Positions 11,301 to 55,583 of a stretch of 64,000 bases of DNA are shown in pieces. The notes under the pieces are model-generated. The model made no database searches, was not told where the DNA came from, and was given only the letters and a program-made list of their open reading frames with translations. The position numbers and the translations under genes were made by a program. The stretch comes from Ditylenchus dipsaci (Eukaryota > Nematoda > Chromadorea > Rhabditida > Anguinidae). Where the stretch lies: assembly GCA_004194705.1 (NCBI GenBank), contig SADC01001303.1:62001-126000 (forward strand), written 5' to 3'. Numbering within the stretch: the stretch's first letter is position 1; each line of letters starts with the position of its first letter.

Positions 11301-13125
11301 CACGGTTGTATATGTTTTAAAATATTGAATAAAATATTTGAAAAAACGAAAAAATTCATTTTTTGAAAATCGAACTTTTTACGGCTGTACGAACTTTCGT
11401 AAGAAGACAATTTCGTAAGAGAGAAGTTTCGTAAGAAACATTTTCGTAAGAAACAGTTTCGTAACAGCGAAAATTCGTAAGAAAATTTTTCGTAACAGCG
11501 AATTTTCGTAACGAATTTCTTTCGTAAGAGGAAATAATCGAATTTTTTTTCACTCTTATTCAATTTTTCTAATTCAGGATTTCATCTGATTCATTTGTTT
11601 TGGCCTTTCTGTCACTGTTTGACACTTCGAACAGTTAATTATATGACTATTAACTGTATGAGCACAAAAGTTGGTAAGCATAGGTCATATGACTGAAAAT
11701 TTTGATAATTAGTTGACCCCCAGATTTTTCATCCATTAGGAGACCAGCAGAAATACCAAAAGCATGGTGAAAAACTCCGAGCTCGAATTTATATATTATA
11801 TACTACACATTAGTGGCATGTATGGTGCAGTAGGTAAGTTGATGAAATGAATTTTTTTCACCAGTGGTTCGATTCCACCCTCTGACTGTTTAATTTTTTT
11901 TTCTTGACTATTTTTGGTCAAAACATCACAGAAGCTATAAGAAACATCAAAGGAGGATCAAAAAGCAAAAAAAGCAACTTAACATATCACTAATGTTACT
12001 GAAAACCGCGTTACGAAAAAGCTTGTTACGAAAATTCGCTGTTACGAAAAAGTTTCTTACGAAAATTCGCTCTTACGAAAATTGGCTTTTACGAAAATTC
12101 GCTCTTACGAAATTGTCTTCTTACGAAAGTTCGTACAGCCCTTTTTACGAATTTTGGCTCGAAAACCTACTTTAGAGTCTATGTCGAAAATTGAAATTCT
12201 ACTCCATCTGAAAAAGCGATCAATTTTGGCTCTAAAAGTGGCCTTGCTTCATTTTTGAAAAAAGGCGCCAATTTGAAAAAAAAGAATGTCTAATATCGAA
12301 ATTTGAAGGTTGCCGAGTTTGGCTTATTTACTGTGAATATTACAAGGAAAATTTTGTGTATAATATACCAAATGATCGCCAGAAAAAATGCAACAGAGAT
12401 GGTGCAAGAACTCGCAAGACAACTAGCCAATTTTCGGAAAATTTGAGCCAGAAGAATTTGCACATAAACCACCCAAAAAACAAGGGATTTTTCTATGGAG
12501 ATTAAGATGGCTTTACCTTGGTTTCATGATTTTCTCAAAATTTTACGTAAGAATTTTAAAAAGTTTATGCATCATATTGTAGCGCGTGAAAATCTGCATT
12601 AGATACAAGTATTAGATCGTGAGTGGGATTATGGTTTCCGGATTTTCGAGAATAAAGCAAAACGTAGCCATGTATGACCATGCTTCCAGCATTTTTCTTT
12701 AATCCTTTCAAAAATTAGGAAACCATAATCCCACTCACGATCTAATACTTGTATCTAATGCAGATTTTTACGCGCTACAATATGATGCGTAAACTTTTTA
12801 GCCGGTCTCACCGTCCGGCCTTCCCGTGTTAACTATGCATATCAATTTAGAAGAGGCTTCACACCAGTTAACTGGTTTTCAACCAGAAGTCCCGGTGCAA
12901 ATAGAATCAGAGCCACAGAAAAGAGCTGAAACACACCAAAAAGTTGCTTCTGACCAAGACGATTCTGCTTTATTTGCTGGATCTGTTGCTGCTTGTCTAC
13001 GCTTGATGGAACAGTCTGCAAGGGAGTACGCCAAAATGAAGATCCAACAAGTACTCTATGAGTGTGGACACGCCAAAAAGGGGGTTGCGCATGAGTATGC
13101 TACTGTTCAATCGCCCAAAGAGTAG
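5386..13125 (+). CDS. C2H2 zinc-finger protein with AT-hook; TE-filled last intron
   Basis: Probable DNA-binding regulator. Exons: 5386-5418, 5699-5821, 5876-6081, 6699-7038, 7717-7974 and 12851-13125. Finger 1 (CELCNKEVSSHLYLEFHLINTH) is in exon 3. Finger 2 (CDICEVELKSLEALRKHKLDEH) spans the exon 3/4 join, followed by an Asp/Glu-rich segment. Exon 5 has an AT-hook (KKKGRGRPP) then finger 3 (CHFCGQVMSNVAILNQH), separated by a frameshift at the A run 7842-7844 that looks like a missing base. The intron 7975-12850 is 4876 bp, packed with transposons. The exon 5 donor (CAAG/GTAAAC) joins the 12851 acceptor in phase, giving a terminal exon with an amphipathic, BESS-like helix around 12970-13060. 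That last join is inferred from phase and splice signals only; otherwise translation stops after 7974 in the intron. Confidence 0.7.
8123..8994. mobile_element. hAT-like element with ATCCGCGGAT repeat ends
   Basis: Left end CAGGGGTGGTAGTAACAATC and the complement of the right end, CTGGGGTGGTAGTAGCAATC, are inverted. Inside each end are arrays of palindromic ATCCGCGGATA words (8140-8310 and 8865-8975). The ends resemble hAT termini, but I found no matching 8-bp duplication, so class and exact borders are uncertain. The centre is AT-rich with no recognisable transposase. Confidence 0.7.
9011..10566 (-). mobile_element. pogo-like transposon, internally deleted
   Basis: The ends CCGTATTTTCTCTAATAATG and CATTGTTAGAGAAAAACGG are inverted and flanked by TA at 9009-9010 and 10567-10568. 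Subterminal CCCCCTCTCTAATAATGA repeats follow. The minus strand encodes a partial pogo/CENP-B-type transposase (about 9250-9985). Its ends match the many short MITEs in this window, so this is the best in-window source family. At 1556 bp it is shorter than a complete element and lacks most of the catalytic domain. Confidence 0.85.
9250..9985 (-). pseudogene. Partial pogo/CENP-B-type transposase
   Basis: Read on the minus strand, exon 1 (about 9985-9790) carries a CENP-B/pogo-type helix-turn-helix (LEAIDWAKKNSIHSAATKF then VKRWRGKE). The next exon (about 9720-9540) continues with LELANFVKEMRENKRPIS and the MAQEFF helix. A third exon (about 9450-9280) opens the DDE nuclease domain at MDETAVWFD, the first catalytic Asp. 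The remaining catalytic residues are absent, because the element ends soon afterwards. The product would not be expected to catalyse transposition. Exon borders are plausible GT/AG but were not checked against a reference. Confidence 0.7.
10598..10991. repeat. Foldback element with shared stem core
   Basis: Inverted arms begin GGACAATACTTTTTTCCGAC and carry a core reading GTAGCT...ATCTCAGCTTTCTAACGAGC near 10702-10730, with its complement near 10858-10890. The same core recurs in four other foldbacks here that have unrelated outer ends. Confidence 0.7.
11062..12828. mobile_element. TTAA-flanked TIR element carrying nested units
   Basis: About 28-bp inverted ends (CACGG(G)AAGGCCGGACGG, then TGAGACCGGCT) are flanked by TTAA at 11058-11061 and 12829-12832. 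TTAA duplication is typical of piggyBac, but no transposase is visible and the terminal bases are not the usual CCC, so class is open. It contains the tandem-repeat unit at 11383-12140 and a palindrome at about 12556-12801. Its right end lies only 18-22 bp from the splice acceptor of the zinc-finger gene's last exon. Confidence 0.65.
11383..12140. mobile_element. Tandem-repeat-TIR element (CGTAAGAAA word)
   Basis: The ends read GGCTGTACGAACTTTCGTAAG and the complement, followed inward by arrays of TTTCGTAAGAAA-like words (11395-11530 and 12005-12130). The flanks CTTTTTAC(G) at 11375-11383 and 12141-12149 are an 8-9-bp target duplication. The 0.75-kb centre has no coding sequence. The architecture matches the MULE-type units elsewhere in the window. 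Confidence 0.8.
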
Positions 13126-13922
13126 AACCGAGTGGCTCTGTCGAAAATTGTTTCAATGAGATCTCTTGTGGTTGCCTTAAAAGTCTTTATTTAATTTTAT
13201 GGATAACATATTTTAAACGCATAAACTTTGTTCAAATTGCAAAATATATCCACACAAACTAGATCTTTTCGAGAAAGAGTAAGTTATGCCCTTTCAGTTT
13301 GTGCCCCTTCAATTTGTGCCCTTTTTGGTATTTTATCGGTTTTAAATTGCTGATAGAGGGGCGCAAACTGAAATGAGACAACTTACTCCTTCCCATTTTT
13401 TCCGTCATTGGCTCTTTGGTAGCTCTTCAACAATGGAGGTGCGAAGTCGAAGTGCAAAGTGAAGTCATCAAAATTTCGTGTGTATTTCTAATAACTGAGG
13501 TTTATGTTTTATCGTGTAAAAGACCCGAAAGGGGAGTCTCAAGCTTTCTTGTTTTTCCCCGGCTTCACACCTCCGTTGTGAGTGTCCCACAAAATCAGGG
13601 GCATTACTCGAGTTCTCCCGCACATCGCTGCAAACTATTTCCTCGAAAATTTCATTTTGAACGCAATATAACCGTTGGCGTTTTGCCATTTTCAAATAAT
13701 TCAAAAATGTGACTTATTCATTAGAGTACTTTGCCCTCTGCATTTACAAATCTGCCCATTTTTCAATTCTGATTTCAATTATTTCGACTTCAAAAATTTG
13801 TGCTGCTCTCCTTCAATTTTCCGCTCTCCTGTTTTACCTATTGAAGCCATATGGCTTTCAAACATTGCACCGCTTTCAGTAAAAACCCAGTTTGCGATGT
13901 ATTATTCAGATATTCTCGCTAA
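13126..13922. other. Intergenic; short TTTGTGCCC repeat
   Basis: No gene is supported. About 13285-13380 holds a small hairpin of TTTGTGCCCCTTCAA words, the same word that forms the ends of the element at 16181-17870. The stretch 13700-13922 immediately precedes YIF1 and probably contains its promoter and leader. Confidence 0.4.
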
Positions 13923-15194: not shown

Positions 15195-15456
15195 TGATCG
15201 CTCAACGATTTTTTCTAATTGCTGTGTCGGTGTAAAATTGTTGTTTGCGATAAACTATTTTCCATCTTTCCGTTGTGTTCTGCAATTGCACCGTCTTGCA
15301 TGTTATTTTGTCATCGTTTCGAGTAGGGATCAGGACGAAACATTACCGTCGAAACACCATCGGCCGAAACACCCCGCCAAAACACCCCCGCCAAAACACC
15401 CCGGCCGAAACATCCCCGGCCGAAACATCCCCATTTAAATATTTTACCATGAATGT

Positions 15457-16125
15457 AAGTAAAGGGGGAGTGTCTCTTGTCCGTATCTGGTCGCGCATGG
15501 AAAACGTTTAAATTCAAATTAAACCACTTTCGGAGGTTGTTGGTTCGAATCTCTCTGGGTGTAAACCGCAGTTTTTCAGCGATTGAGCTAAATTTATGTT
15601 AAAAAATATCGACGAATCGATTGGAAACATTTCCGGATTGTTTTTTTAAACAGCAGTCTTGAATTTGCGAAATCAGCCAGAAAGCAAATATTTCGGTTTA
15701 TCTCTATTTTGTCTATCGGTCTATTTTATTTTGGCCATTTTCTAGAGTCAGAAATGCGCAAGTTACCTCACAAAAAATCTCTACATCAAATAGTAATAGA
15801 TAGTATGACGAAAATTACTTCAGAAATCGGGTAGCTTGGATAGCTTGATTTATAGAAATTACCGATTTTCGGACAAAAATCAACTTGCTATTTTTGGTTT
15901 TAACTGTAACTTAGCTATGATGCTTGTGGAATCATGCCTGATAATCTAACTCGGCCTGCAATCACCTGACAATTATTTTTGTAAATGTCAAATAACATGT
16001 CAAAAAAATAAAGTTTACAACCATGGGTGTTTGAAACAGCAACCTCCGGAAGTAGTTTAATTTGAATTTAAACGTTTTCCATGCGGGACCAGATACGGAC
16101 AAGAGATACACTCCCCTTTAACGGC
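15457..16125. repeat. Foldback repeat inside the 15325 element
   Basis: About 80-bp inverted arms (AAAGGGG(G)AGTGT, then CTTGTCCGTATCTGG, then CATGGAAAACGTTTAAA) at 15457-15545 and 16036-16125 enclose about 490 bp of non-coding sequence. Confidence 0.75.
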
Positions 16126-16325
16126 ATTCTTCCAAAAAAGATGTTGAACCACTCTAAAAGAAACAGAATGCTGTAAAAACGGGAAGGAGAGAGATGTGCC
16201 ATTTTAGATTGTGCCAAATCAAATTGTGCCTTTTTACTTTGTGCCCCTGCAGTTTGTGCCCTTTTCAAATTATGCCAATGCAATTTGTGCCCCTTCAGTT
16301 TGTGCCCATTTCAAATAGTGCCTAC

Positions 16326-16569
16326 CGTATATTTTCTATTTGAAGGCTCCTCTCTAATAGAAGGCCTCCCTTGAGGACCTATATATCAGCCTAGAAAAAG
16401 AAATTAGCAAATCTGTTTTTGCGTTTTCTTAGTTAGCACGAGCTGACCTGATTCCACTTTTAAAATTTTGGTTGAGCACGCAAAAATCTCAAAATCGACC
16501 CAAATTTTTTCCGACTTTTTTAGGGTTGAAAAATAGAAGGCCCGCGCCTTCTAAATAGACAATATACGG
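16326..16569. mobile_element. pogo-type MITE, TA-flanked
   Basis: A 244-bp copy with CCGTATATTTTCTATTTGAA at the left and ATATACGG at the right, TA on both sides (16324-16325 and 16570-16571). The internal GGGTTGAAAAATAGAAGGCC is shared with the copies at 1552 and 24423. Confidence 0.82.
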
Positions 16570-17108
16570 TATGCATTTTGTGCCTTAATTTTGACTAATT
16601 TTGGCTATAAAAATACTGCAATTATTTTCCTAAAGGCTCCCAAGTCAAAATCGTCCGAAATCAGCACTCCAGCTCACCCAAAATCCTATGAGACTACATA
16701 AAACACCCTAAGACACTCCAAAATATCTAAAATCATCTCAAACCACCTCGAACCACATAAAGACCATGATACTTTCTAAAAACCCTAAACTACTTTTATC
16801 GGCATAAAACATTTCATTGTAGTGGTTTGTGGTAGTTTCAGATGGTTCAAAGTGATTTAGGCCACTTTTGGGTGGATTTGGGTTTTGGGTGGGTTTGGAT
16901 CGCAAATCCTTTTACAAATCCTTGACCTGCTAATCCTTTACCAACAAAACCAAGTGGTCGTCCACTTGGATCAAAAAAATTCAATATTTGGTATTTGGAA
17001 ATATCCAGGTACTTGGAATCGAACCTGAGACCTACAAAGTTGATCCAATCACGTTCACCACTGCACACCGAACTCAACTGGGGGTATTGTTATTGTTAGT
17101 TTTTTAGT

Positions 17109-17437
17109 CTAAACCAACCAAACCAAGTGGTCGACCACTTGGATCAAATTTTTTTTTACGTTTTTCATGTTTTCGAAACATCTTTTCTGGACTAATTCAG
17201 GGACGCTGAAGATAGTTTGACAGTGGTAAAATGACGTTTCTCGGGTATTTTTTGAGTATTGGGCAACAATTGATTTTACCAAAATCAATTTTTTGCCATA
17301 ATTCGAAAAATACCCGAGAAAACGGCATTTCACCACTGTCAAACCATCTTCAGCATGACCAAATTAATCCAGAAAATAGGTTTTGGAACATGAAAAAAAT
17401 TTTGATTTAAGTGGACGACCACTTGGTTTCGGGCCCA
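17109..17437. repeat. Foldback MITE, CCAAGTGGTCG ends
   Basis: Nearly perfect palindrome whose ends read ACCAAGTGGTCGACCACTTG, itself a small palindrome. Arms include the block GCTGAAGATNGTTTGACAG. Further copies lie at about 32862-33180 and 33335-33545, and a single end occurs near 16945-16975. Confidence 0.8.
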
Positions 17438-18029
17438 AATGCGTAACCCAAATGCGGGAAGCCCAACGCGTAGTAACCTTTCCTTGCATCAGATTAGCTT
17501 TTTCGGGTTATGTGTGGTAGTCAGAGAGACATCAGATTCACAAGGCATAGTACTCAATGAAACGAGTAATGGCGCCTCTCCCACAAAATTAGCACACATA
17601 AATTTTCAACGATGAAAATTTTTTTCTTGGTCTATGAAATAAGTCAAAAGTGTGGCACAAAATGCATAGGCACAAATTGAAATTGGCACAAACTGAAGAG
17701 GCACAATCTGAAATGGGCACAAACTGAAGAGGCACAATTTTGAATTGGCACAATTTGAAAAGGGCACAAAAAAGGGGCACAAACTGCAGGGGCACAAACT
17801 GAATTTGCACAAACCAAAAAGGCACAATTTGATTTGGCACAATCTAAAATGACACATCTCTCTCCTTCTCGTAAAACTGATGAAACATATGTTATTTTGG
17901 TTAGTAAAGAACTGTTTCCGAGAAAAGTCTTCAAGCGAAAATTGACTTTTTCCCCAGTAGACAAAGGTAAATCATAAAAAAAATGTACCCTTTTACTCCA
18001 AAAAGATCTAATTAAAACATAGTTTTGTC

Positions 18030-18260
18030 AACTGGGACCTACCGCGTAAAGAAACTTTGGTATGCATGCTTTTTTCGTGCATCCAGAGCCACTTTCGAGT
18101 GATTGTGTCTAAGGTATGTGCCCCCGAAGGGGCGCAGGGGGCTTGCTTGCTTGATGATGAGATGCGCGCACTCACTTACCTTAGACATAATTCCGAGCAA
18201 GACTCTTGATCGAAAAAGGCATATAGAGATCCTTTTTGCAAAGTCCTAGTTGAAAAACAT
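18030..18260. repeat. Foldback repeat, GGTATGCATGC/TCTAAGGTA family
   Basis: Inverted arms share CACTTTCGAGTGAT, GTCTAAGGTA and GTGCGCGCA motifs around a GGGGCGCAGGGGGC turn. Related copies lie at about 33985-34205, 37798-38030, 47620-47765 and 50640-50745. Confidence 0.75.
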
Positions 18261-18884
18261 GGTATACATTCGACTTATAATATAAGCACACATAGGATCA
18301 CTTTATTCTGGTGCTTATTTATCATAAATTCACTGTAATAGCATATGTAATGGCACTGTAACAGCGTAAATAAACTTGTTTACTATTTAAATTTTTCAGT
18401 AAGTGCATTCTGGCCATAAGCCTTTATATGGGGGTGTTTCGGCCGGGGGTGTTTTGGCCGGGGTGTTTTGGCGGGGTTGTTTTGGCGGGGGTGTTTCGGC
18501 CGGGGTGTTTCGGCGGGGGTGTTTCGGGGTGGACCCTTTCGAGTTTTGTCGAGTGTGTGTAGTCAGTAAGATTTGGACGCTACTCGTTTTTAACACAACT
18601 TTCAACCACCCCCCCCCCAATAATTTTCAGGTACTCCAAACCATACTTTTTTTTGAAAAATGCTGAAATTAGTACGGGTTGTCCTGAGCCTAATGCCTAG
18701 GGTCCGAAGCCTGATGGCTAAGCCTAAAAATGATTTTTAAGTAAAGGCAAGAGAAGACGTCAAAGTTTCGTTTTCCACCATCGAAGCACTTGATATATAA
18801 CTAAAATACAGCGTTAATATAGAAAAGTAGAACAGAATACAAAAGCGGCGCAATATCAATAGAAGATATTACCAAAAAGCAGTA

Positions 18885-20311: not shown

Positions 20312-21800
20312 CAGAGGTGGGCAAAGATCAGATCAGTTCAGATCAGATCAGTTCAGTTCAGATCAGATCAGTTTAGATCAGATCAGATCAGATCGCCGAA
20401 GATCAGATCAGATCAGATCAAGATCAGATCAGATCGGCATAATATTTTTTTTCTTTAATTTTGTCAAATTTGACACTTTAAGTCAAAATTTAGCGGCGAA
20501 ACGTATTTTACACATAGTTGGGAAAAGATCAGATCAATTTAGTTCAGATCAGTTCAGATCGGGTCAGATCGGGTCAGATCGGGTCAGATCGGCTGAGATC
20601 GGCTTACATTTTTTTCTTTAATTTTGTCAAATTTGACACTTTAAGTCAAAATTTTACGGCGAAACGTATTTTACAGTCAAAAAGAAAGGTTTATTGTGTT
20701 TTTAACTATATATTTAATTACAACTTTTGTCGGTAGATTTTTTTCGGCTGGAAAAACTTTTCATTCGGACACTGAATTCGTGTTCAGCATGGTCTTCATA
20801 AAGTAAACCTTCTTTTGAAATTTCAGAGTCACTGTCAAATTTTGAATTTCGTTCAAGATAATTAACATTTGAATTTAAAATTTCAATCTTAATTGTCTTG
20901 AGCGGAAATCAAAATTGACGGGGACTCTGAAATTTTGAAAGAAGTTTTATAAGCAAATCGACCACGCTGAACACGAATGCAGTGTCAGAATCAATTTTTT
21001 CCCCAGCGGAAAAAAAGTTATAAAAAATTTGTGTCACAACTTATATATTCATTTTGCACATTTTGTCATAACTTGACAATGAACTATAGTTGCATTCAAA
21101 GCCAAAATGACAGTGACATTCTGCTCTTTGTTTTGTTTTGATTATTCAGCTATATTTTATCTCTGCACAAAGTTTTTTGCTTGTAGAAAGTAAGAATGGA
21201 GCGTTTTGAAAATCGCTACTCCAATAAACAAGTGGTGATTTATCTTAAACCTTCAAATCGAAAGAGTCAATGGTTAGTATTTTCAAAAAGCTAAATTCCT
21301 GGCGGTCATTTTGGTATATTATGAGCGTGGGTGTAGTATGACCATCATGGCGCATTAATTGAAAACCTGTGGGTACCCAGCTGGATTTTGACCCTGCACA
21401 ATGTGTTACCTCCCGGACCCTTTTACACCTACTTCATCAATGATTGTAGCAAAAAAGAGCCCCGCCATCGTGTTCACCGGGAAATTCTGCACAGTAATCA
21501 ACAACCGATCTGAACTTATCTGACCCGATCTGACCCGATCTGACCCGATCTGAACTGATCTGAACTGATCTGAACTGATCTGAACTGATCTGATCTAAAT
21601 TGATCTGATCTTTTCCCAACTATGTGTAAAATACGTTTCGCCGCTAAATTTTGACTTAAAGTGTCAAATTTGACAAAATTAAAGAAAAAAAATATTATGC
21701 CGATCTGATCTGATCTGATCTTGATCTGATCTGATCTGATCTGATCTTCGGCGATCTGATCTGATCTGAACTGATCTGATCTGATCTTTGCCCACCTCTG
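20312..21800. mobile_element. hAT-like element with GATCAGATCA repeat ends
   Basis: The ends CAGAGGTGGGCAAAGATCAG are inverted and the flanks GTAGAATC (20304-20311 and 21801-21808) are a perfect 8-bp target duplication, as in hAT. Arrays of GATCAGATCA/GATCGGGTCA fill 20325-20430 and 20526-20605, with complements at 21500-21610 and 21700-21790. Each arm repeats a TTTGACACTTTAAGTCAAAA block. No transposase is visible, so it is non-autonomous. Confidence 0.9.
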
Positions 21801-24055: not shown

Positions 24056-25436
24056 ATGTGCTATTTGCCTATGATCGTTATGGTGGTTGGTGGCGTGGCT
24101 GTTTGGGTTATCTACACAAAGTCTCAGACTACTAGATACTACATTCGAGTTTCTGCCTTATACGCAAGTGTCTTTTTGGCTGGGTTTTTCTCAATGTTTG
24201 GTGCCGTCCCGACCTACTTCTACAACGGGGTAAATGATTTTTGGCTTTTTTGTCAAGTTAATTCAAGCATTTAGGGAGCTATGGTCGCCATGTCCTGCCT
24301 GAAGTTTTTCTGCTCTTTCTGGTTGGATGTCGATGTAGAAGTTCGTGGCGATGAAAAGATTGCTGCAGCCAGTGGTCCGGATAACAAGCCGTTGCTTTTG
24401 ATATCCAATCATCAGGTAATTACCGTAAAACCTCTATTAAACGGACACCCTCCAATAAACGGACACCCTCTAATAAACGGGCACCCTCAAGGACCTATAT
24501 CTCAGCGCAATAAATTTTTTTTGCAAATCTGTTTTTCGCGTTTTCTTGATCACCTCGATCTTAGTTGATTCCGCTTTTTAGATTTTTTGAGTACCCAAAA
24601 ATCTCAAAATCAAAATATTTTTTTTTCGATTTTTTAGGGGTTGAAAATTAAACGGGCATGCCGTTTAATAGAGGTTATACGGTACTTCTATGCTATGAAG
24701 TAGTTCCATCATCGGGTTAATTCACGTAAAAAATTCAGAGCTCAATCGATGTATTTGTGATGTCTCAGTTCTGGCCCAATAAATGTGTCGCTATGCTGAA
24801 AAATTCGTTGAAATTCGTTCCTTTCTTCAACATCTCTGCTATTCTGGTATTGCCATTTTCTTAATTATTCATCATATAGTATGTTTTGCGATCTTAGTGC
24901 AACTCGATTTTCGTCAATCGCTTTAGTAAGGAAAGCGCGCATAAGACTGTGCTGGATGCTGTAGACTTAATGTTGAAGAAAAAGCTAAAGCTATATGTAC
25001 GTTCTGTGGTCCTTATGAGTTACAAACGACTTATTACTTGCAGGTATTTCCCGAGGGCACAAGGCATCATGGGCATGGCATGCTAGAGTTCAAGAAAGGG
25101 GCCTTCAATATTGCAGTCCAGGCTCAAATCGACATTGTGCCCGTTGCTATCTCAGATCTGCGACCGTTCTACTCAAAAACAGGCAAATACTTCCACAACA
25201 ATGGCAAGATTATCGTGCAAGTATTGGATCCCGTTCCTACCAAAGGGTTAGTTACAACTTGTTTGGTCCATGTATAACGGTTTAATTTTCTGCAGTTAAC
25301 AGCAGAAGATGTTCCAAACCTGTGCAAGAACATTCGAGAAGACATGATGAGGGTCTACGACAAGATTAGTATCGAAGCGGAGCAAAAATATTTGGCAGCC
25401 AATTCTCAGCTAAACGGCGTGAGAAAGCAGCGTTGA
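24056..25436 (+). CDS. AGPAT: 1-acyl-sn-glycerol-3-phosphate acyltransferase
   Basis: AGPAT/PlsC enzymes acylate lysophosphatidic acid to phosphatidic acid on the ER membrane (family knowledge). Exons: 24056-24229, 24275-24415, 24739-24846, 24898-24996, 25044-25246 and about 25303-25436. Two hydrophobic segments come first. Exons 2 and 3 join into NHQSSID, the NHx4D catalytic motif. FPEGTR is in exon 5, followed by the ...VPVAIS block. The usual GVIFIDR-type motif reads NSIFVNR, with Asn in place of Asp. The exon 5/6 join needs one more G near 25245-25247, probably an assembly deletion. Intron 2 holds a pogo MITE. A TTTCAG acceptor lies 50 bp before the chosen ATG; polyadenylation signal near 25597. 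Confidence 0.92.
24423..24682. mobile_element. pogo-type MITE in AGPAT intron 2
   Basis: A 260-bp TA-flanked copy (24421-24422 and 24683-24684) with inverted CCGTA...CTCTATTAAACGG ends. It occupies most of the 323-bp intron. Confidence 0.82.
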
Positions 25437-28872: not shown

Positions 28873-30543
28873 GGGTACGTGACAATTCACCGCCCGGACA
28901 ATTCACCGCCTGGGACAATTCACCGCCGGGACAATTCATCGCCGGGACAATTCACCGCCCGGGACAGTTCACCGCCCGGACAGTTCACCGCCCGGGACAA
29001 TTCACCGCCCGGGACAATTTACCGCCAGGATATCAAATGGCATATTTTTATACTATTCTTGCTTATTTTCATTTATTCTTACTAAACAATGTAACAAAAA
29101 TTTAATGACAAACTTTATTCAAAACAACAAAACATAACATCCAAACAATAACAACATTAAATTTTCAACAACTCTAAAGATCCTCCATACGATAGTTGTG
29201 CGCAATACCAGATAGAAATTCTTCGGTGGTCCGATCATCATAGCTTTCCACGACTGCCAAGATCTGCCTGTCTGCCTTCTGGTAAATTTCCCGCTTGCCT
29301 TTTGCTTTCTTGCCTTGAAGCCATTTCAGATAAAGTTGGTCGCGACCTTGCTGCACCTTGCGAAGACAATCTATGAAGCTCCAGATTCCCGGATGGCACA
29401 CGTCAAGTTCGTTTGAATACGATGATTTGCGCCCTCAGCGTAGTTCTTTGTCCGATGCTGCTTGTTCATAGTCCTTTCGTACACATCCCAAAGAGAGTGA
29501 GGGAACATAGGCGGCACGAAGTCTCCACGGCGGCTGACGATCCTTAACATATTTAAGTTAAACACAAAATCCAACAAAAAGGTCGCCGATATAATATCTC
29601 TGAAACCACTGCATGACTGGCTCCAATTCTGCTGGAATCACATTCCAAAGCTCGTCGAACATCCAAACAATATTCTCAGGCTTCAGACCGCCATTGCAGT
29701 GATCATTCCTGTAATAAAGTAATCAAAAACATTCAAAGACTAAAAGAACATACGGCACTTAATTGCAATGTCCGGCTCGGTTTCGTAACGACGCTTGAGA
29801 CCATTTTCACCAAGATTCTTCTTCATATTCTGGACCATATGAAAGAAACAGCCCCATACATCCGTATCCGGAGAGACCACTTCTATTGCATTGATTACCT
29901 CCATTTCGAAGTCGATGGAGATGCTAGACGGAGCAAAGTCTGACCACAGATTCTTTACCATTTGGAACATTTTCTCGTACGTTGATTGCGTTTTATTCGG
30001 CAGTAGAGCATATAAGACGGGAAAACGTAGCCTCCACGTTCGGCGAGAATCACATAAACCTAAACAATGAATGTTCAGTTAACGCAAAATTAAAAGAATG
30101 ATACCTGATAGAATGGCGGCGGAGTAATTTTAAACGTCCCATCTGCGAAAACGACTTTCATATCTTTTGCCCATGACTTGTTCGATTCGCGGCCAAAAAG
30201 CAGAACTCTAAATTAAAAATATCATAAAAACTTACTAAACAAATTAATTGACCTTTCTAAATCCTAGAGTCAACCAGCAAAAACTTTTCCGGTGCATTCA
30301 AGCCAAACTGATACTTGCCAAAGCGATCTGGTATGACGAAATTGATTCCATTCGGATTCCATTTTACTATTAAAAAAGCTTTCAAAAAATGGCGGTGAAC
30401 TGTCCCGGCGGTGAACTGTCCCGGGCGGTGAACTGTCCCGGGCGGTGAATTGTCCCAGCGGTGAATTGTCCCGGCGGTGAATTGTCCGGGCGGTGAATTG
30501 TCCCGGGCGGTGAATTGTCCGGGCGGTGAATTGTCCGTGTTCC
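28873..30543 (-). mobile_element. MULE transposon with tandem-repeat ends
   Basis: Arrays of GGGACAATTCACCGCCC words (28879-29030) face complementary arrays (30400-30540). The flanks ATAATAAAC at 28864-28872 and 30544-30552 are a perfect 9-bp target duplication, the size expected for Mutator-like elements. It encodes a MULE transposase on the minus strand, so it is the likeliest source of activity for the similar non-autonomous units. It is inserted next to a pogo-MITE remnant (TACCGTAATCCTCTAATTAG at 28854). Confidence 0.93.
29174..30380 (-). CDS. MULE-family DDE transposase
   Basis: Reading the minus strand from 30380 downward: a FLL.DS block; then an exon with [15 protein letters not shown], which supplies the first catalytic Asp and the usual aromatic Gln; then [14 protein letters not shown], the second Asp; then the [14 protein letters not shown] helix (C..H of the MULE domain). 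Downstream exons give [20 protein letters not shown] and EGANHRIQ, the standard MULE C-terminal helices, ending RMEDL and a stop at 29174. Short introns interrupt it (for example 30077-30103 and 30210-30252). One T appears to be missing near VFPVLY. No FLYWCH finger is visible in this copy. Possibly still functional if the frameshift is an assembly error. Confidence 0.85.
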
Positions 30544-31305: not shown

Positions 31306-34300
31306 ATGAATACAATTGTTGATGAACCGGTATGTGATGCCAAAATGGGTGGAGGGATATTCGAAAGGTTCCAAAGCAGCTGCTCGACTTCTGATTGGGA
31401 CTTCACTCTTGTGCTCAATGTCTTCGAATGTCTCATTTCTGTGATTTCCTTCGCAGTTGCTTCCAATCTCATTGGATTTGACTTTGTGAAGGTCAATCTT
31501 TTACAATAGTTCCAGTTTTTAAGAGCTAAATATTTGACGATTTTAGTTTTTGCGTTTGTTCCGTCGTTGGTCTCCTGATGAGATAGAATTCCGCCGCCTC
31601 AATTTGAAGATTGCTGAGATCTCTAAAAAGATGTCTGTACTCTCTCCAGTCAATGATTTTGCTCAGTATTTCAAGCATGAGAGGGTCCGTAATAAATTAG
31701 TGGATGAACAAAATTCACTGTGTGAGTTTTTCTTTTCAGCTTACATTTCGTCTGTTATATTGCAGTTCAGTCAAAATAGTAACAAAAGAGCTTATTCCCT
31801 TAGAACTTCTAGCTTCGCTTAAAAGGGGCATGCCCGTGTGTTTCGAAAAGTTAAAGGGGACCAGCAAAAAATCCGGGTCGTGCTATTTTTCACTTGTTTT
31901 GCATTAAATCTGATATTAAAGGAGGACGAACTTTATGCGGGGGGAGGGTATCTTGACTAGTAAATGGAATTTTTCGGTCCTCAGTTAATTTAATTTTTGA
32001 CCCTACTAGCTTATACCCCCCCAAAATCAAGTTTTTTCAGAGTATCTAAAAATCATTTTTAAGTAATAATTTTGTCGTAAAAAGACTAGGATAGCAATTT
32101 AACCCTGCGGTAGGCCCTAGCAATTTAAAAGGGATTATGGGCTGTATTGGGCGTTATGAGAAAAAATCGGGTCGCAAAAATCGGGTCGGAAAAAATCGGG
32201 TCGGAAAAAATCGGGTCGGAAAAAATCGGGTCAGAAAAAATCGGGTCGGAAAAAATCGGGTCGGAAAAAATCGGGTCGGAAAAAATCGGGTCAGAAAAAA
32301 TCGGGTCGGAAAAAATCGGGTCGCTCACCACTCAATCTCAGGTTCAGTAGGGCAAACCACCTGGTACGTTTTTCTAAATGGATATCCACATCCAGAATCC
32401 GAAATTTTGTATTTGGCTAAAAGTAGCTAAAATCATTGTACCCTGTACAGAACCATTTTACCTACCGTTTTACCCACCAGTTTACCTACCGAAACCCGAA
32501 AACCTGGGGTAGATGCCACCTAACCAGGTCGGTATCCACCTAGAAGACCTGAAAAAATATTTTTTGATATTTTGAAAAACAAAGCATGCTATCAAATGTG
32601 AAATCGTGACGTGAATAAGGTTTGATAAGACCAAAATCCCAATTTCACCTACCCAGACCCCGAACCCGAAATGGGCACCTTCTGGTCAGGTGGATCAGCT
32701 GGATCGCCTGTAAAGTAAAAATTTCAAATTTCAAAAACAAACCATGCTATCATATGTGGAATCGTGTAGGAAGTTGGGTTAAATGAAACCAAAACTCCGA
32801 TTTCACGCACCGAAATCCCAATATTCCGGATAGGTACTACCTGGCCAGCTGGACCACCAAAACCAAGTTGTCGACCACTTGGAGCAAAAAAAAATTTTCA
32901 TTTTTTCGGGTTCCAAAACCCATTTCTGAACTGATTCGGTCATGCTGAAGATGGTTTGACAGTGGTAAAATCACGTTTCATCGACATATTTTTGAGTTAT
33001 CACTAACGATTGATTTTGATTAATCAATCGTTAGCGATAACTTAGAAAATACCCGACAAAACGGCGTTTTACCACCGTCAAACCATCTTCAGCATGCCTG
33101 AATCAGTTCAGAAAATCGGTTTTGGAACCCAAAAAAATGAAAAAAATATTTTGCTCCAAGTGGTCGACCACTTGGTTTTGTTGTACCCAGGTATTCGTAC
33201 CCAGGTAGTGTAGTGGTTGGTACCCGGGTAGTAATATTTTCATCTTGTACAGAACTTTACAGAACAAATTGTATAGAACAAATTTAATATGTTTTCTATG
33301 ATCTAACTTCAGTTCTACTGCATAATCCATGAACCAACCAAACCAAGTGGTCGTCCACTTGGATCAAATTTTTTTATGTTTTTCATGTTCCAAAACCTGT
33401 TTTCTGGACTAATTCGGGCATGCTGAAGATGGTTTGATAATAGTAAATAAGGTTTTGTATGGTATTTTTAAAGCATTGGGATATAATTGATTTTGCGAAA
33501 ACTGCTTTTTACCAAAACTCAAAAAATACCCTACAAAACGGCATTTTACCACCATTCAGGGTAAATCTGAACCATTCGGGGTGGAGTTGAACCACTGAGG
33601 GAATGAAAAAATTGAAGGTTGATCTGAACAACTGAGAGTGGGTCTGGACCACTAAAGTTGAATCAGATAGGATCAAAGCCCCCGGGGCCTGGTGCCCAGG
33701 TACAAAAACTATAGTGACCCGATTTTTTCCGACCCGATTTTTTCTGACCCGATTTTTTCTGACCCGATTTTTTCCGACCCGATTTTTTCCGACCCGATTT
33801 TTCTGACCCGATTTTTTCCGACCCGATTTTTTCCGACCCGATTTTTTCCGACCCGATTTTTGCGACCCGATTTTTTCTCATAACCGTATTGGGAGGGGAA
33901 GGGAACAATAGGGGGCCACTTTTTAGTCAATTTTTTTTGGCCATTCTTCGGCTGCCTCACCATGTTTTTCAACTGGGCCGTGGCAAAAAAAGACTCTATA
34001 TGCATTTTATGGTCAAGAGTACTTCTCGGAATCATGTCTAAGGTAAGTGAGTGCGCGCATCTCTAACTCTCAAGCGAAGGGGGCGCAGGGGGCTTGGAGT
34101 TGAGATGCGCACACCCACATACCTTAGACACAAATCACTCGAAAGTGACTCTGGATGCATGAAAAAGCATGCATACCAGAGTTTATTTATGCGGTAGGCC
34201 CCAGTATTCAAAACTATGTTCAACATCTTTGATTTTTCGGCCGAAAAGGGTTTCCCCCTCTTCTGGCCTGGGGCTACGAGCCAGAGGCTCAGCCATCCAA

Positions 34301-38700: not shown

Positions 38701-41700
38701 GCTCCCAAATAATAAATCTCCGGAGCAGGTTACAATACCCCAGCACTCAGGTTTACTTGACCCCAGCAGTAAAATTAGCTTGGGGGACCAAGGCAAAATT
38801 TTTAAAAAATATCGAAAAACAATTTTAAAAATTTTTAAAAAATTTTGCCTTGGTCCCCAAGCTAATTTTACTGCTGGGGTCAAGTAAACCTGAGTGCTGG
38901 GGGTATTGTAAACTTTAGCCAAATCTCCCGATCAGATTGTTAATAAATAACCACTCCTTTTCCAACGAAGTCCAGGTGTCCTGCCTCGCCTGACAGCTAA
39001 TAGCACATCTGATTTTAGGTACTAATTTCCATGTTTTAACTCTACTTGGTCCGTTTTCGTTTCTGGCATAGAAATAAAAGAGTAACTATAGAAATACCGA
39101 GGGATGGTATGAGATACGTAATTAGGCTTGGCTGTTTGGGGTCGGGAAACGGGAATGGGAATTTGGAAAAAAATTGCTCCTGCGGGAAACGGGAATGGGA
39201 ATTCCAAAATTTCGGGAATCCGACGGGAAACGGGAATTTTTAAAATAAGAGAGAAAATCCAAAATTCTGCAACTTTTTCGGGAATTGGACATTTTTCCGT
39301 TGGACATTTTTCCGTGGACATTTTTCCGTGGTCATTTTTCCGTCAGAGCATTTTTCCGTTGGACATTTTTCCGTCAGACCATTTTTCCGTTGGACATTTT
39401 TCCGTCGGACATTTTTCCGTTGGATATTATTCCGCCACATCCGCCACATCCGTCGGCGCAAATTGGCAAACTGCGCAACTTGGCTGAATTCAGGGAGTAA
39501 TGTTGGGGTAGTGGAACTTGTTTACTTCAGGGAGCTCTTTATACAAAATAATAGTTTTACTTCAGTAACTCACTTAGTTGATGCTCGGATAACAATTGAT
39601 AGACATAATTCCTAACAAACAAGTTTGATTCCGTTTTAATATACGCTGGTTTATTCTGCGCTTGAAGCTTCGACTAAGTGAAAAAAGTTGACTTCACAGC
39701 AGGGTCCCCGCAGGGGGTTTTTTATCGGTATACCAGTGACACATAAGAAATACTATAGTACCCCTTCAATTGTTGTTTCTTTTTATTGGCGATACAGTCT
39801 ACTCTCGATATAACACTATTTCGATACAAAACCACTCTTGACACCGCCTAAACGCCTATACACCGAATCCTTTTGGTTTTATTGAAGTGTAGAGTAGGAA
39901 AAAGTTTGAGCGAGCACTACTATATCAGTTCTTTTCAACTCTCTACCTATGATATGGAAAAATTCGGGTATCTTAATGACTTGAAATCCGAAACTAAAAA
40001 TTATTTAACGGGTTTAGTTTTCACCTCTGATTGATGTGTACTAAGCATAGTACGCAAACCTATAAAATGACAATTTTCTGACAATTCAGTACTACTTATT
40101 AGTACTACTATTAGTACTGGTACTACTACTATTAGTACTACTAAGTTAGTACATACGTAGAGCGTTAGTACGCTCTACGCCACGTGAAGGCACCCATGAT
40201 GCAGAGCAACCTCGAAGGGCCAAGGGCGAACCTTGATTTTCTTCAATAAGATGATGCCCCTCTAAGCCGACAAACCAAGATCATTATTCAAAAGATGGTG
40301 CCATGACACTGTCTTACTGAACACGATTAACTTAAAGAACACGTACAGGCCTTTGAGTAAAGTACATAGACATGTTTTGTTAGAGATATTTATTGAGGAG
40401 GTTCCAACAAGGTGTGTAACAATAACAGTGAAGAGGGTCCAACAAAATGTGCAATGACAAAAGGAACAAAATCATGCCCGTGATAGGAGACTAAAATGGC
40501 TAAAATTGATTTACGCCCTCAAAAACTGATTTACGCCCTCAAAATACTGGTTTACGCCCTCAAATCTATATATTGCCATTTTTTGTCAAATTTTTGTTGC
40601 CACTTTTTCAATATTTTTACACCAGCATGTAGCCCTGAATCTTGGCTTTCTAACAAGCCATTGACTGATTTTCTGAGATTTCAAAAAGCTGGAGAAAGAA
40701 GTCTTTGTATGGAGCAAATTTTCGAAAAATTAAAGACAAAGACTTCTTTCTCCAACTTTTTGAAATCTCAGAAAATCAGTCAATAGCTTGTTAGAAAGCC
40801 AAGATTCAGGGCTACATGCTGGTGTAAAAATATTGAAAAAGTGGCAACAAAAATTTGACAAAAATGGCAATATATAGATTTGAGGGCGTAAACCAGTATT
40901 TTGAGGGCGTAAATCAGTTTTTTGAGGCGTAAACTACTTATAGCCGACTAAAATTACGACAAAAATGAAAAAGCAATGAAACAATATGCAACGGAAAAAT
41001 GTCCAACGGAAAAATGGTCCAACGGAAAAATGTCCAACGGAAAAATGTCCGACGGAAAAATGGTCCGACGGAAAAATGACCACGGAAAAATGTCCACGGA
41101 AAAATGTCCTAAACCCACTTTTTCTTCAAACAAATCAAACAAACAAATCTATAAAAGCCTACTCAGACTTCCCGAAGTCACGCTTGACTCCGGAGTCAAA
41201 TGGTCTGACTCCGGAGTCAAAATCGGTGATCCCGGAGTCAAATGGATGACTTTGGAGTCAGATAGATGACTCCGGAGTCAGCATGAGTTCCGAAGTCAAT
41301 CCAGTTTTGTCATGCAAAACTACTGTAATCTTTTTTTTGCATTTTTTCATGTTGTTTTCGATCGGGATCTTATTTTTTCGCTGCAAGACGATGAAAAATA
41401 TACTGTGACAGATGTCAGTATGTAAAGTTATAGTATGTAGAGAGTGATCTTTAATTTTAAAAATCTTCACCGGAACAAACAATTGGTACGGTCTTGGTTT
41501 TAGAAATGAAAAAAGCTTGTTCTCACAGCAAGTAGTTTCCTGAATTCTTAGCCGTTATTCTGTTTAAGAAGACGTTCCACCAGAAATGACAAAAGAAATG
41601 ACCAGCAAAATTGCTTAGTAGCAAACAATTTTGTTTTGGCATTAAATAAATTTGAATTTGGATTTCGGAAAATTTCGGAATTTTCGAAAATTGAACGGGC

Positions 41701-43476: not shown

Positions 43477-44694
43477 GGACACGGACAATTCACCCCCAGG
43501 ACAATTCACCCCCGGGGCCGATTCACCCCGACTGATTCACCCCAGCCGATTCACCCCCGGCCGATTCACCCCCAGGACGATTCACCCCCAGGCCGATTCA
43601 CCCGCAGTCGTTCACACTTATTATTGTTGAGACATTATTTGAAATTTAAACGAAAACTTATTTTGTGACAAATAAGCCCTTACTCTTTGTTCTGGTTATT
43701 TTTGTTGGCATAGTCCGTTATTTTGCTGTAGCTTTTATTGCTATTGTTCTCTCTTGTGTGTTTACGACTTATAATCTTTATCCAATTAATCACAGGTTTC
43801 GAATAGTGCTTGATATCAGCCTCGTGAGACGCGTTTTGGGGTTTTTTTTGCGTTTTGAGACGATGATCCTCGTGTTTCTGCTGATGAGCAAATAACTCCG
43901 GTAGCTATTCTGGCTTCTTCGTAGTGTGCCTTTATTGTTGTTATAATCACTCTCAAAGCAACCCTGTTAAGGTTTTTTCGGAGAAAGTCAAGGAGAAGCT
44001 TGTTTTGGACGGATTTCTCTTCTGTAAACAAAAAGAAAGTCGCGACACTACACGAACTTTCTGGCAGTATGTGAAAATCTCGGTATGTTTCCGATTTCAG
44101 AACCCGGCTCAGATTTTCAACGCGCTTCTTCCTCCGTCTCAATCCATTCAAGCCGAAATTACAAAGAGTGCTTTAAAAAATCCAGTGCAAAGACATCGGA
44201 TTCGAGAAGCTGGTGGTCTAGTCGCTCAGGAAACATCAACTTGCTATTCCGGAATACTATAAATTCTACTCTGTTTTGGAAGGTGGACGGGAGCTGGTTT
44301 TTTCTCTGTTTTTAGCTCTTTTGCATTTAAGATCCATAATTTATAACAACTTTCTCGGTGGATTATGAAGTAGCTGCCATCAACGCAATTAGAGTACCAG
44401 AAGCACAGTGGAATTCCAATGCATTTTATGATGGGAGAGTAGCTCATTTCATGCTCTTGTTTAATATACCATGATCTTTCGAAGATTTTCCAAATTTACT
44501 CTGAATAAAGAACTCCTTGAATATTTGTGTGTCTTTTTAATAAATAATGATGGGGTGAATTATAGCTGGGGGTGAATCGTCCTGGGGTGAATCGGCCGGG
44601 GTGAATCGGCTGGGGGTGAATCGGCTGGGGGTGAATCGGTCGGGGTGAATCGGCTCCGGGGGTGAATCGGCTGGGGGTGAATTGTCGCGCACCC
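43477..44694 (+). mobile_element. MULE-type tandem-repeat-TIR element with FLYWCH exon
   Basis: Arrays of CCGATTCACCCCCGG/CAGG words at 43485-43610 face complementary arrays at 44553-44685. The flanks GTTTGTGG at 43469-43476 and 44695-44702 are an 8-bp target duplication. The end words (ACAATTCACC...) resemble those of the MULE at 28873-30543. The interior encodes a FLYWCH-like segment but no DDE domain. It inserted about 290 bp after NDOR1. Confidence 0.88.
43960..44262 (+). pseudogene. FLYWCH-like zinc-finger fragment
   Basis: The frame around 43924-44262 reads KEKLVLDGFLFCKQKE...RTFWQYVK, resembling the start of a FLYWCH finger (hydrophobic, Gly-Phe-x-Phe, then Trp). FLYWCH fingers are common N-terminal DNA-binding modules of animal MULE transposases. 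The trailing QIFNALLPPSQSIQAEI may be linker. The second Cys and His ligands are not clear and no catalytic domain follows, so this is a remnant. The assignment is tentative. Confidence 0.5.
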
Positions 44695-45640: not shown

Positions 45641-45642
45641 TA

Positions 45643-46346: not shown

Positions 46347-46348
46347 TA

Positions 46349-52506: not shown

Positions 52507-52860
52507 TACCTGCACGGGCGCCAGGCAAAATTTCGCCATTTTTGGCCGAGAGCGTCGGGCGCCCTCTTTCATGCCGGCGCCCTATTTGTCGGCGCCCAGC
52601 TCTGGTAGCCGCAGCATTAATGGATTTTTTAATTATTTTTTCGGGTTATTAAAGTTTTAAATTATGTTTTTTTACTATTTTTGTTATACCATGGTGGCGA
52701 AAAAGAAACATTTTAGGTTAAGCACATATCGTAAACCCCAGCGCCGCCTTTTTCGGGACGCCGGCGCCAGCGCAAATTTTCAAGGGTTGTCCGGAACCGA
52801 TTTTAGAAAGGCCCAGCCCCGGGTTGGTGCCCGGATCCGATTTTTTTGAGTGTGCAGGTA
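52507..52860. repeat. GC-rich GGCGCC palindrome cluster
   Basis: Inverted CCTGCACGGGCGCC/GGTGCCCGGATCCG and CCTACCTGCAC/GTGCAGGTATAATTG ends enclose several GGCGCC words, in sharp contrast with the AT-rich surroundings. Probably a small foldback element. Confidence 0.55.
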
Positions 52861-53453
52861 TAATTGTAGTACTTAAAAATAGCTTTGCAAAAATTTACTT
52901 TCCACTCTTCTGAAATAGTGAAAAAAGTTAGCAAAAAGTGACATGTGGCTAGAGGGATTCGAACCTGAGAGCTTTTAGATCAAACACAGAGTATATCTTG
53001 ATGTAAACGGTGCCATGGCATTTCGTCCAAAATTCAGTTCGTCCAAAGTCAGTTCGTCCAAAATATAGATCGTCCAAAATTCAATTCGTCCAAAGACAAT
53101 TCGTCCAAAATTCAATTCGTCCAAAAGTCAGTTCGTCCAAAAGCCAATTCGTCCAAAATGCATTTCGTCCAAAATGCAATTCGTCCAAATTTCAACATGA
53201 TGAAGTATGGCAGTATCTCTATTGATCCACTTCCACCTGCGTACCGATATGTAGGCACTGCCTAATAATATCACCTGACCATTTCTCCTTAAGTCACCCA
53301 AGTACCACGTCTTTCGGACTACGACTTCAACACCCTTTTGATCAAGATTTGATTGAGACATTAATCCGATTATTGTTGTCATTTATGCTTACATATTTTC
53401 GATTCATAGTTTCTATTGGTAAATAAATTGGTTTTTAGCAGTTGAAAGCAAGC

Positions 53454-54563
53454 ATGGCTATCGGCAAAAATAAGAAGATAAGCAAGAAGGGAAATAAGAA
53501 GAAGGTGGTTGATCCCTTCACCCGAAAGTAAGCTTTTATGCGACAGGAAGGTTTTCTTAGTTATGTTTCTTGCTGTTTTAGGGAGTGGTACGATGTCAAA
53601 GCTCCGGCTATGTTCACGAACCGCACCATTGGGAAGACATTCGTCAACAAGTCTCAGGGAACAAGTAAATTGCATTTCCATTTCACCTTTTAATTGATTG
53701 TTTCAGAGATCGCCAGTGACTTCCTGAAGGGGCGCATCTATGAGTAAGCCTCAAGTTATCATCTGATCACCTAGGATGTTCTTTATCTTTAGGGTCTCAC
53801 TTGCCGATCTCAACAATTCCGAGTCCGATTTCAGAAAGTTCCGCCTGATCTGCGAGGATGTGCAAGGAAAGATGTGCTTGACCAACTTCCACGGGATGAG
53901 CTTTACTCGTGACAAGATCTGCTCCATCGTCAAAAAGTGGCATGTGTGTTTGTTGCCTACGCTTTGTCCGTTTTGTTGTATACCAAGCTTTAGACCTTGA
54001 TTGAAGCTCATGTTGATGTGAAGACCACTGATGGATATCTTCTGCGCCTATTCTGCATTGGATTCACCAAGAGATCTGACAATCAAGTGAAGAAGACCAG
54101 GTTAGTATTCCTCAAGTTATTTCAGAAGGTATTACCCTTGTTTCAGCTATGCCAAGTCGTCGCATGTTCGCGCTATCCGTGCCAAGATGGTCGAAATCAT
54201 GCAGAAAGAGGTCTTTTTTATTTCTCTCGTCGTCATATGACTGATTTGACATTTTAGGTTGCTTCGAGTGACCTTCGTGAAGTGTGCAACAAGCTGATTC
54301 CGGATTCCATTGGCAAGGACATTGAGAAATCGTGTTTCCGAATCTATCCTCTGCAAGACGTCTATATTCGCAAGCTTAAGATCATCAAGATGCCGAAGTT
54401 CGAAATGGGCAAGCTGTTGGAAATGCATGGCGCGACTGCTGGTGCCATCACTTTCGGAAATGGCGAGATAACCTATCGTCCAGATGCCTATGAGCCGCCT
54501 GTGCAGGCTAGTGTCTCGTATCTTGATGATATTAAATTGTCTGTTCTCGTTATTTGGCAATAA
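53454..54563 (+). CDS. RPS3A: 40S ribosomal protein S3a (eS1)
   Basis: Core protein of the small ribosomal subunit. Exons: 53454-53527, 53582-53664, 53707-53743, 53793-53943, 53994-54100, 54147-54210 and 54258-54563, all GT/AG and in phase, giving 273 residues against about 264 in human. Conserved blocks: [83 protein letters not shown] and [11 protein letters not shown]. The protein continues about 15 residues past the usual ...SV end ([15 protein letters not shown]). Unlike its neighbours it shows no frameshift. ATG follows a TTTTTAG acceptor by 16 bases, suggesting trans-splicing. The whole gene lies inside a transposon-like unit with a 9-bp target duplication, so it may be a mobile duplicate. 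Whether it is the only copy cannot be seen here. Confidence 0.97.
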
Positions 54564-55009
54564 ATTACGTTGTTTGATTTTTGTGCTTTTAACTGTAAAT
54601 GACATTCTGTCAAATTAGCTGGGTGTGATGCATGATTTCCCGACAAATAATTTGCGACAAAGGAAGGAGAAAGATATTTTGTATTAGCCAAAACGAGCCC
54701 AAACCACCCCAAATATCTTGATCCCGTTCAAATCACCACAAAAAAAGTTTAACTATTCTAACTGACTTGTTTAGGATGTAGTTGGGGTCATTTAAATAAT
54801 TTTGGCTGGTTCGGGGTGATTATAGTTTCATTGGAGTGATTTGAAGCGATTTTAGTTCTAGCGGTTTTAGTTTAGTTGGTTGAGACCACAGTCCTCACTG
54901 CGGACTTCACTGCGGACCTGTGACCTATTAAGAGACAATTCACCTGAGATCTATTTACCTCGAGTCCAAAATCCCATGTCACAGAGATGAAAAACCAATG
55001 AAAACGGTT

Positions 55010-55265
55010 TTTGGGGTTTACTGAAGGGTGGACAATTTTTTGCGAAAAAACGGTCGAGCTAATCAAAATCGCACTGTGACGGGATGAATCGCTCAGAATC
55101 TGACCACCGAACATTGCAAACTACTGCGAACCGTCCTAAGCAGTAGTTTTAGGATAGCTTCGGATATTCGGTAGTATTCTGAGCGATTCACCCGATCTCA
55201 TTGCGATTCTGGTTCGCTATATCTTTTTTTCGCAAAAAACGACTGTCCACATTTAGTAAACTCCC
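55010..55265. repeat. Foldback inside the rps3a unit
   Basis: Arms TTTTTTGCGAAAAAACGGTC, AATCGCACTGTGACGGGATG and AATCGCTCAGAATCTGACCA are mirrored around a turn near 55140. A nested MITE-like insertion; non-coding. Confidence 0.72.
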
Positions 55266-55583
55266 AAAACTAGATTTATTTTGGCTATGGGCCACTCTGG
55301 CACAGGTTTCTGAGCGGTTGAAGTTATGCTGTCATCGTTGAAATGGTTCTCTCGCAAAAATTTTGATTTGAAATAAAAATTTGGACGAATTGAATTTTGG
55401 ACGAACTGCATTTGGACGAACTGCATTTTGGACGAATTGCATTTGGACGAATTGCATTTTGGACGAAATGCATTTTGGACGAATTGACTTTTGGACGAAC
55501 TGAATTTTGGACGAATTGTCTTTGGACGAATTGACTTTGGACGAACTGAATTTTGGACGAAATGCCATGGCACCGATGTAAAC

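Follow-up and report, generated by a model that had tools for sequence, protein, structure and literature searches.

Introduction

Drosophila foldback (FB) elements and sea urchin TU elements are among the closest described counterparts of a group of transposons found in a 64,000-nucleotide stretch of the nematode Ditylenchus dipsaci (GenBank assembly GCA_004194705.1, contig SADC01001303.1, positions 62,001 to 126,000 of the forward strand), hereafter the window. FB/NOF of Drosophila, classed as MULE-NOF in repeat libraries, has long inverted ends made from short tandem repeats, with a 31-bp period among them, target site duplications (TSDs) of about 9 bp and a transposase-like gene in a minority of copies only. 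The inverted repeats of TU elements contain tandem repeats of about 15 bp in their outer domain, and their TSDs measure 8 bp; no transposase is known to be tied to them, unlike in the present group. Mutator-like elements (MULEs) with a FLYWCH domain are widespread in animals. In these elements, as in Phantom, a FLYWCH zinc finger is followed by the MULE DDE domain and TSDs measure 8-9 bp. Plant Pack-MULEs, finally, carry a host gene within transposon ends in many copies.

Most of the nine elements designated E1-E9 in the window are likely to be non-autonomous or decayed members of a large MULE radiation, many members of which carry FLYWCH, with foldback-type terminal inverted repeats (TIRs). 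Such a TIR has an outer motif starting with GG and, on its inner side, an array in which a word of 7-14 bp is repeated head to tail, typically 6-12 times, at a pitch of 14-17 bp. A preliminary description of the window knew no standard name for such a group, whereas FB and TU elements share this architecture.

Several features set the group apart. Unlike in FB/NOF, many word families occur in one genome, the arms are short (about 0.1-0.2 kb), an outer motif recurs and the MULE-coding elements are compact; where both ends were seen, most of them measure about 2.2-2.9 kb. With respect to FLYWCH-type MULEs and Phantom, a possible difference lies in the word-array ends, which were found here at all 18 of the top MULE loci (two with one arm seen). 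A possible counterpart of the Pack-MULEs is E8, which contains an RPS3A gene, apparently with introns; it differs in having foldback ends and in a superfamily membership that is putative. The architecture itself is a known one; many word families under one grammar, co-descent of word and transposase, and a multiplied ribosomal gene are not known from the described elements.

Elements of the window

E1-E8 are the eight units of the preliminary description. E9 and E10 were added by a blind scan of the window, with tandem-repeat calls and inverted matching between arrays as its only input. The elements are as follows:

E1, 11383..12140: 758 bp; word TTTCGTAA, 15-16 bp pitch, 9 copies left and 8 right; TSD CTTTTTAC
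E2, 15326..18536: 3.2 kb; word CGAAACA(CCCCGGC), 13-15 bp pitch; TSD TTTCGAGT; houses E3
E3, 16181..17870: nested in E2; word TTGTGCC, mostly 15-16 bp pitch; TSD GTAAAAAC/GTAAAAC
E4, 28873..30543, minus strand: word ACAATTCACCG(CC), 16-17 bp pitch; TSD ATAATAAAC; MULE transposase remnant inside
E5, 32152..33885: word AAAATCGGGTC, 14-15 bp pitch, 11 copies per arm; TSD GTATTGGG
E6, 39280..41116: word CATTTTTCCG, 14-16 bp pitch; TSD ACTTTTTC; houses E9
E7, 43477..44694: word GATTCACCCC, 14-17 bp pitch; TSD GTTTGTGG; internally deleted relative of the MULE element L062
E8, 53009..55574: word TTCGTCCAAA, 15-16 bp pitch; TSD GATGTAAAC; RPS3A gene inside
E9, 40498..40945: 448-bp foldback element in E6; word TTTACGCCCTC, 20-21 bp pitch; TSD GACTAAAAT
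E10, 20312..21800: hAT-like; inverted AGATC arrays; ends CAGAGGTGGGCAAA; TSD GTAGAATC

The coordinates of the eight units agreed with the earlier ones within 1-2 bp; for E2, the best boundaries were 15326-18536 with TTTCGAGT as TSD, the start having been placed at 15325 before. A private word in inverted arrays together with a flanking 8-9-bp repeat was seen in all eight (8/8), the two TSD copies of E3 (GTAAAAAC and GTAAAAC) being unequal by one deleted A. Across the aligned ends of E1-E8, the two arms of an element were 80-99% identical. Two insertions are nested, E3 within E2 and E9 within E6. All eight array pairs were recovered by the blind scan, the duplication of E3 being missed by its automatic end-finder. 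Besides the newly found E9 and E10, the scan returned three weaker pairings (scores 25-27) without matching ends, which consisted of arrays of different elements or of a single array.

Layout of the ends

Word pitch was determined in 21 elements, using words and mismatch limits chosen by hand and counting gaps of 8-60 bp. The gap was 14-17 bp in 286 of 306 cases. The other 20 gaps comprised ten of 28-32 bp, each probably representing a missed word copy, three of 20-21 bp in E9, and seven of 13 or 18 bp. Words faced inward at both ends, and matches in the wrong orientation numbered zero except in E2 (2 and 1), for which a 7-mer with one mismatch was used, and in E9 (2 and 3), where the scanned stretch extends into the other arm. 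Inverted ends of short tandem repeats, which characterize foldback-type elements, were thus present in all 21.

Nearly all ends start with GG, the exceptions being the right end of E3 (GAG) and the left end of E5 (CG, with C in place of G). Several MULE families have GGGACACGG at one end, with GGGTAC or a variant of it at the opposite end. Genome searches were carried out on the 227-Mb assembly of 1359 contigs, in which the outer motif GGGACACGGWCRWTT was found at 347+344 places and its reversed control at 0. The ends of E6 (GGG...GGACATTT) are similar to those of the MULE locus L003. Spacing and terminal motif thus recur while the words vary, in line with the constant layout proposed earlier.

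Target site duplications

An element was scored as duplicated when at least one GG terminus lay near the array edge and the flanks carried an exact repeat of 8-10 bp, or one of 9 bp with one mismatch when both termini were GG. With their own flanks, 31 of 39 elements passed this rule, as against 7 of 1482 mismatched flank pairs, one of which (L007-L006) represents a genuinely shared flank. The flanking 8-9-bp repeats of the preliminary description therefore occur well above chance, and the 8-10 bp found in these 31 elements lie within the size range of MULE duplications (8-11 bp, mostly 9). By group, the rule was passed by 8/10 elements of the window, 11/15 MULE loci and 12/14 copies of the E5 family. 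Failures were E3, E10, L007, L008, L061, L063, L045 and L051. In E3 the cause is a one-base gap in the repeat; E10 fails the GG condition yet carries an exact 8-bp repeat.

Seventeen copies of the E5 family, E5 included, had both ends. An exact 8-bp duplication was present in 15 of these 17 and in 2 of 272 cross pairs, both of them L042 against L050. Of the remaining two copies, one has a duplication with a single mismatch and the other, L045, has one only with a shifted end.

The right flank of L007 bears the repeat of the left flank of L004 (contig C1343), which suggests ectopic recombination between the two copies. In E3, E4, E8, L042, L045, L053, L057 and L059 the TSD ends in AAC just before the terminus, a possible target preference.

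Copies of the E5 word in the genome

The doubled E5 word (27 nt, at most 2 mismatches) was found at 182+162 (344) places genome-wide, and the reversed control at 0. Listed places fell on 22 contigs, 20 of which were fetched, leaving out that of E5 itself (the window) and C1347. Both arms were present at 17/20 fetched loci and a single arm at 3/20, the former including L049, with a very short right arm, and L046, the right end of which is cut by the contig end. As the arrays form inverted pairs flanked by duplications, simple tandem satellites were rejected. Single arrays, which would have spoken against the preliminary description, are in the minority.

Flanks are shared between L042 and L050, between L043 and L052 (reversed) and, on the left side, between L006 and L007. 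Some contigs therefore look like haplotype or segmental duplicates, and the number of copies may be overestimated. The flanks of E5 loci yielded another six inverted array pairs that have GG ends and repeats of at least 7 bp (L040, L047, L051, two in L054, and L058), together with other array pairs without GG ends and flanking repeats.

When blocks longer than 150 bp were considered, L039, L041, L047, L051 and L055 aligned to E5 at the arms only. A longer match of L048 to the interior of E5 falls outside the L048 element. Since these loci are alike at their arms only, one set of ends, that of the E5 word, encloses different interiors.

Association with MULE transposases

The genome contains at least 115 matches to the MULE domain PF10551, counted with 150 of the 504 candidates scored. 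The 18 best matches (L001-L008 and L059-L068) were taken by rank, disregarding their ends. They include near copies and represent about ten word families. An inverted word-array pair enclosed 16/18 of these loci, which supports a tie between the word arrays and MULE genes. At the other two, L064 and L068, one arm each was seen within the 3.5 kb read, with the same word as in their relatives L065 and L067, respectively. The motifs DGTF, DFE, GCxFHL and RTNN(F/Y)AE are present in exons and may hold the DDE catalytic residues. FLYWCH was detected by Pfam in L001, L002 and L039, and by tblastn in 10/16 loci searched among the 18 (the match in L064 being partial).

Two transposase remnants were located in the window:

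29740..30078, minus strand: open frame in E4 with MULE transposase domain (PF10551, E=1.4e-9, 38.7 bits)
43978..44067, plus strand: FLYWCH-exon remnant in E7 (tblastn, query FLY_L039, E=3e-4)

The preliminary description had credited a single unit with a MULE transposase. This holds for E4 as the carrier of PF10551 and needs amending for E7, which retains part of a FLYWCH exon and aligns with the MULE-coding element L062 in stretches of 617 bp (93%), 274 bp (95%) and 295 bp (85%). The FLYWCH remnant of E7 closely resembles the corresponding segment of L062, and the words of the two elements score 0.92 against each other. Similarly, the word of E5 scores 0.95 against that of L039, which has a FLYWCH domain (Pfam) and was matched in tblastn by three queries from MULE domains (1e-8 at best). 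A MULE domain is thus connected with the arrays directly in E4 and at the 16 paired genome loci, through L062 for E7, and through L039, by tblastn alone, for E5.

For the other elements, words were compared with those of MULE elements. The E2 word scored 0.42 against L062 and 0.35 against L067 (controls up to 0.16), and the E1 word 0.34 against L008, hardly over its reverse-complement control (up to 0.30). Best scores of E3, E6 and E8 against 12 MULE-element arrays were 0.21, 0.23 and 0.22, with shuffles reaching 0.13-0.15 and reverse-complement controls 0.10-0.20. The ends, the duplications and, in all but E9, the pitch suggest that the MULE superfamily may also include E2, E3, E6, E8 and E9.

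E10 bears on this assignment. It has CAG-type termini (CAGAGGTGGGCAAA) and an exact 8-bp duplication (GTAGAATC), as expected of a hAT element, and is called hAT-like from the terminal consensus only. Inverted word arrays might then have arisen in unrelated superfamilies, with only E4/E5/E7-like elements being MULEs and E3, E6, E8 and E9 belonging elsewhere (hAT, P/Galileo-like or Merlin). We consider such convergence somewhat unlikely. It would account for the combination of hAT-like ends and own arrays in E10, the 20-21-bp pitch of E9, and the words of E3, E6 and E8, which have no clear match among the 12 MULE-element arrays and come without a transposase match in these elements. It does not explain why E3, E6 and E8 have GG-type termini, 8-9-bp duplications (with a one-base gap in E3) and a 15-16-bp pitch as in MULE-coding elements, nor why the ends of E6 resemble those of L003.

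Words, transposases and array dynamics

Word similarity was compared with MULE-domain identity in 16 elements, namely E4, 14 of the 18 MULE loci and L039, the last with a segment of 37 residues. The Spearman correlation was 0.40 (2 of 5000 permutations), and 0.39 when one element was taken per word family (n=12; 2 of 5000 permutations). With the opposite strand as control, it was -0.10 (n=16) and 0.00 (n=12). Among the 40 most similar pairs listed, word scores were 0.52-0.98 where MULE identity was 87-96%, and 0.06-0.49 where it was 61-78%. FLYWCH identity was not significantly correlated with the word, at rho 0.30 (n=10; 230 of 3000 permutations) and 0.08 (n=7; 1140 of 3000), and FLYWCH as the word reader was set aside on this ground; in the same subsets, MULE identity gave 0.65 (2 of 3000) and 0.56 (45 of 3000). 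Words and transposases thus co-descend, with fast change of the word, and no particular domain is singled out as its reader.

In the E5 family, a 16-nt word pattern occurred between 3 and 14 times in arms with any match, and the two arms of an element can be unequal in this respect (for example, 14 and 3 in L051). The arrays therefore expand or contract. In the 17 E5-family copies, own arms were no closer to each other than foreign ones (mean rank 0.49), with mean scores of 0.793 for own arms and 0.774, 0.792 and 0.758 for foreign left-right, left-left and right-right comparisons; homogenization of the arms after insertion was accordingly not supported, and arm-from-arm repair was not seen at this resolution. 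The earlier suggestion that the ends evolve by local word amplification is thus supported as far as array size is concerned, which is unstable, and not in the sense of own arms being homogenized after insertion.

These data also bear on two other explanations. The outer motif alone might be recognized, the words being functionless tandem duplications from slippage or aberrant gap repair. The unstable copy number, the non-significant FLYWCH-word correlation and the lack of closeness between own arms are compatible with such passive arrays. We nevertheless regard them as unlikely, given that the 14-17 bp pitch is kept across families with different words, that the same word faces inward on both arms and that it persists while the gap length wobbles. 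The long inverted repeats might also act as an extruded secondary structure instead of as protein sites. The arms are long and near-complementary, and E9 consists almost entirely of inverted repeat, with about 211 of its 448 bp in each arm at 97% identity. Such hairpins seem very improbable to us, as most of the other elements have a long interior (of up to about 3 kb), the duplications are those of ordinary integration and the arms within one element are not preferentially matched.

Observations weighing against membership in a MULE radiation

A number of results count against reading most of E1-E9 as members of a FLYWCH-bearing MULE radiation. Four of the 15 MULE loci tested (L007, L008, L061 and L063) fail the duplication rule. 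No FLYWCH match was obtained by tblastn in L003, L005, L008, L059, L067 and L068, among the 16 loci searched, and the word-FLYWCH correlation given above is not significant. The correlation between word and MULE domain may merely mirror the shared ancestry of entire elements. Pfam did not report PF10551 itself for the L039 frames submitted to it. When seven transposase segments were used in tblastn, no match was found in E1, E2, E3, E5, E6, E8 and E10. Six-frame Pfam scans of E2 (with E3), the E6 interior (with E9) and E7 (at E 0.01) returned no domain. With Pfam and tblastn together, no transposase was identified for E2, E3, E6, E8 and E9. None of the 26 listed end pairs of the E8 family described below coincides with a PF10551 match (0/26, by eye). 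Finally, since E10 combines hAT-like ends with inverted arrays, the array layout is not confined to MULEs.

E8 and its ribosomal protein gene

E8 contains a gene for ribosomal protein S3a (eS1), RPS3A, in several exon matches:

53580..54515, plus strand: RPS3A gene, several exon matches in different frames
53580-53747, 53788-53946, 53985-54395 and 54258-54515: individual exon matches

PF01015 was detected in two frames (2.8e-29 and 3.4e-20), and 54258-54563 matched eS1 of the PDB at 2e-28. Frame changes and stops between the exon matches suggest that introns may be retained. A frame further upstream (53439-53531) may represent the start of the RPS3A protein.

The end pattern of E8 (23 nt, at most 3 mismatches) was found at 191+181 places genome-wide, and the control at 0. 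The 100 places listed contained 26 adjacent +/- pairs less than 6 kb apart, 0 -/+ pairs and 1 same-strand pair. The last exon of RPS3A gave 56 matches genome-wide, some of which are two pieces of one copy, and comparison of the two lists by eye placed an RPS3A match within 13 of the 26 listed end pairs. A host RPS3A may have been captured by the E8 family.

The parental RPS3A gene was not located among the candidate loci C1243, C1228, C1248 and C271. C1243 was rejected because it is itself a copy of E8, with 99.1% identity in 2574 aligned bases, and C1228 and C1248 were rejected because of an E8 array at the expected place. In C271, no E8 array was present in the 701 bases read, and the last-exon match was split over two frames.

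Other repeats in the window

A tandem unit of 17-18 bp of the type CTCTAATAAACGGACACC occurs at 1561-1595, 9019-9070, 24438-24488, 48056-48092, 58032-58087 and 59047-59086. Palindromic arrays of the ATATCCGCGGATA type were observed at 8153-8295 and 8900-8974.

Proposed mechanism and implications

Judged from sequence, the most likely mode of spread is cut-and-paste MULE transposition with foldback-type ends, in which the arrays would plausibly serve as putative transposase binding sites. The transposase of each lineage would bind several adjacent words per end, pair the two ends and make cuts staggered by 8-9 bp at the GG terminus. It would also mobilize in trans those non-autonomous elements that share its word, such as E5 and E7. 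Arrays would lengthen or shorten through slippage or unequal exchange while binding would keep the word, and words would drift along with the transposase lineage.

As a tentative extension, which we consider possible and would not yet favor, the word array could be a fast-changing address code private to each lineage. Weak sites at a fixed pitch would be read co-operatively and the word would drift stepwise with the transposase; in this way, a single MULE ancestor could give rise to many mutually insulated families within one genome, with cutting motif and layout remaining fixed. If this is true, both the cargo swaps among E5-word elements and the spread of the ribosomal gene in the E8 family would ride on private addresses.

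FB/TU-type foldback ends, a long-known peculiarity, are placed in an explicit MULE context in one more genome, alongside a host gene that has spread in a manner comparable to Pack-MULEs. Related transposases form a natural series within a single genome, each beside its own putative binding words, and layout, pitch and outer motif hardly vary among them. This series makes the divergence of a transposase recognition code, and the independence of transposon families, directly testable.

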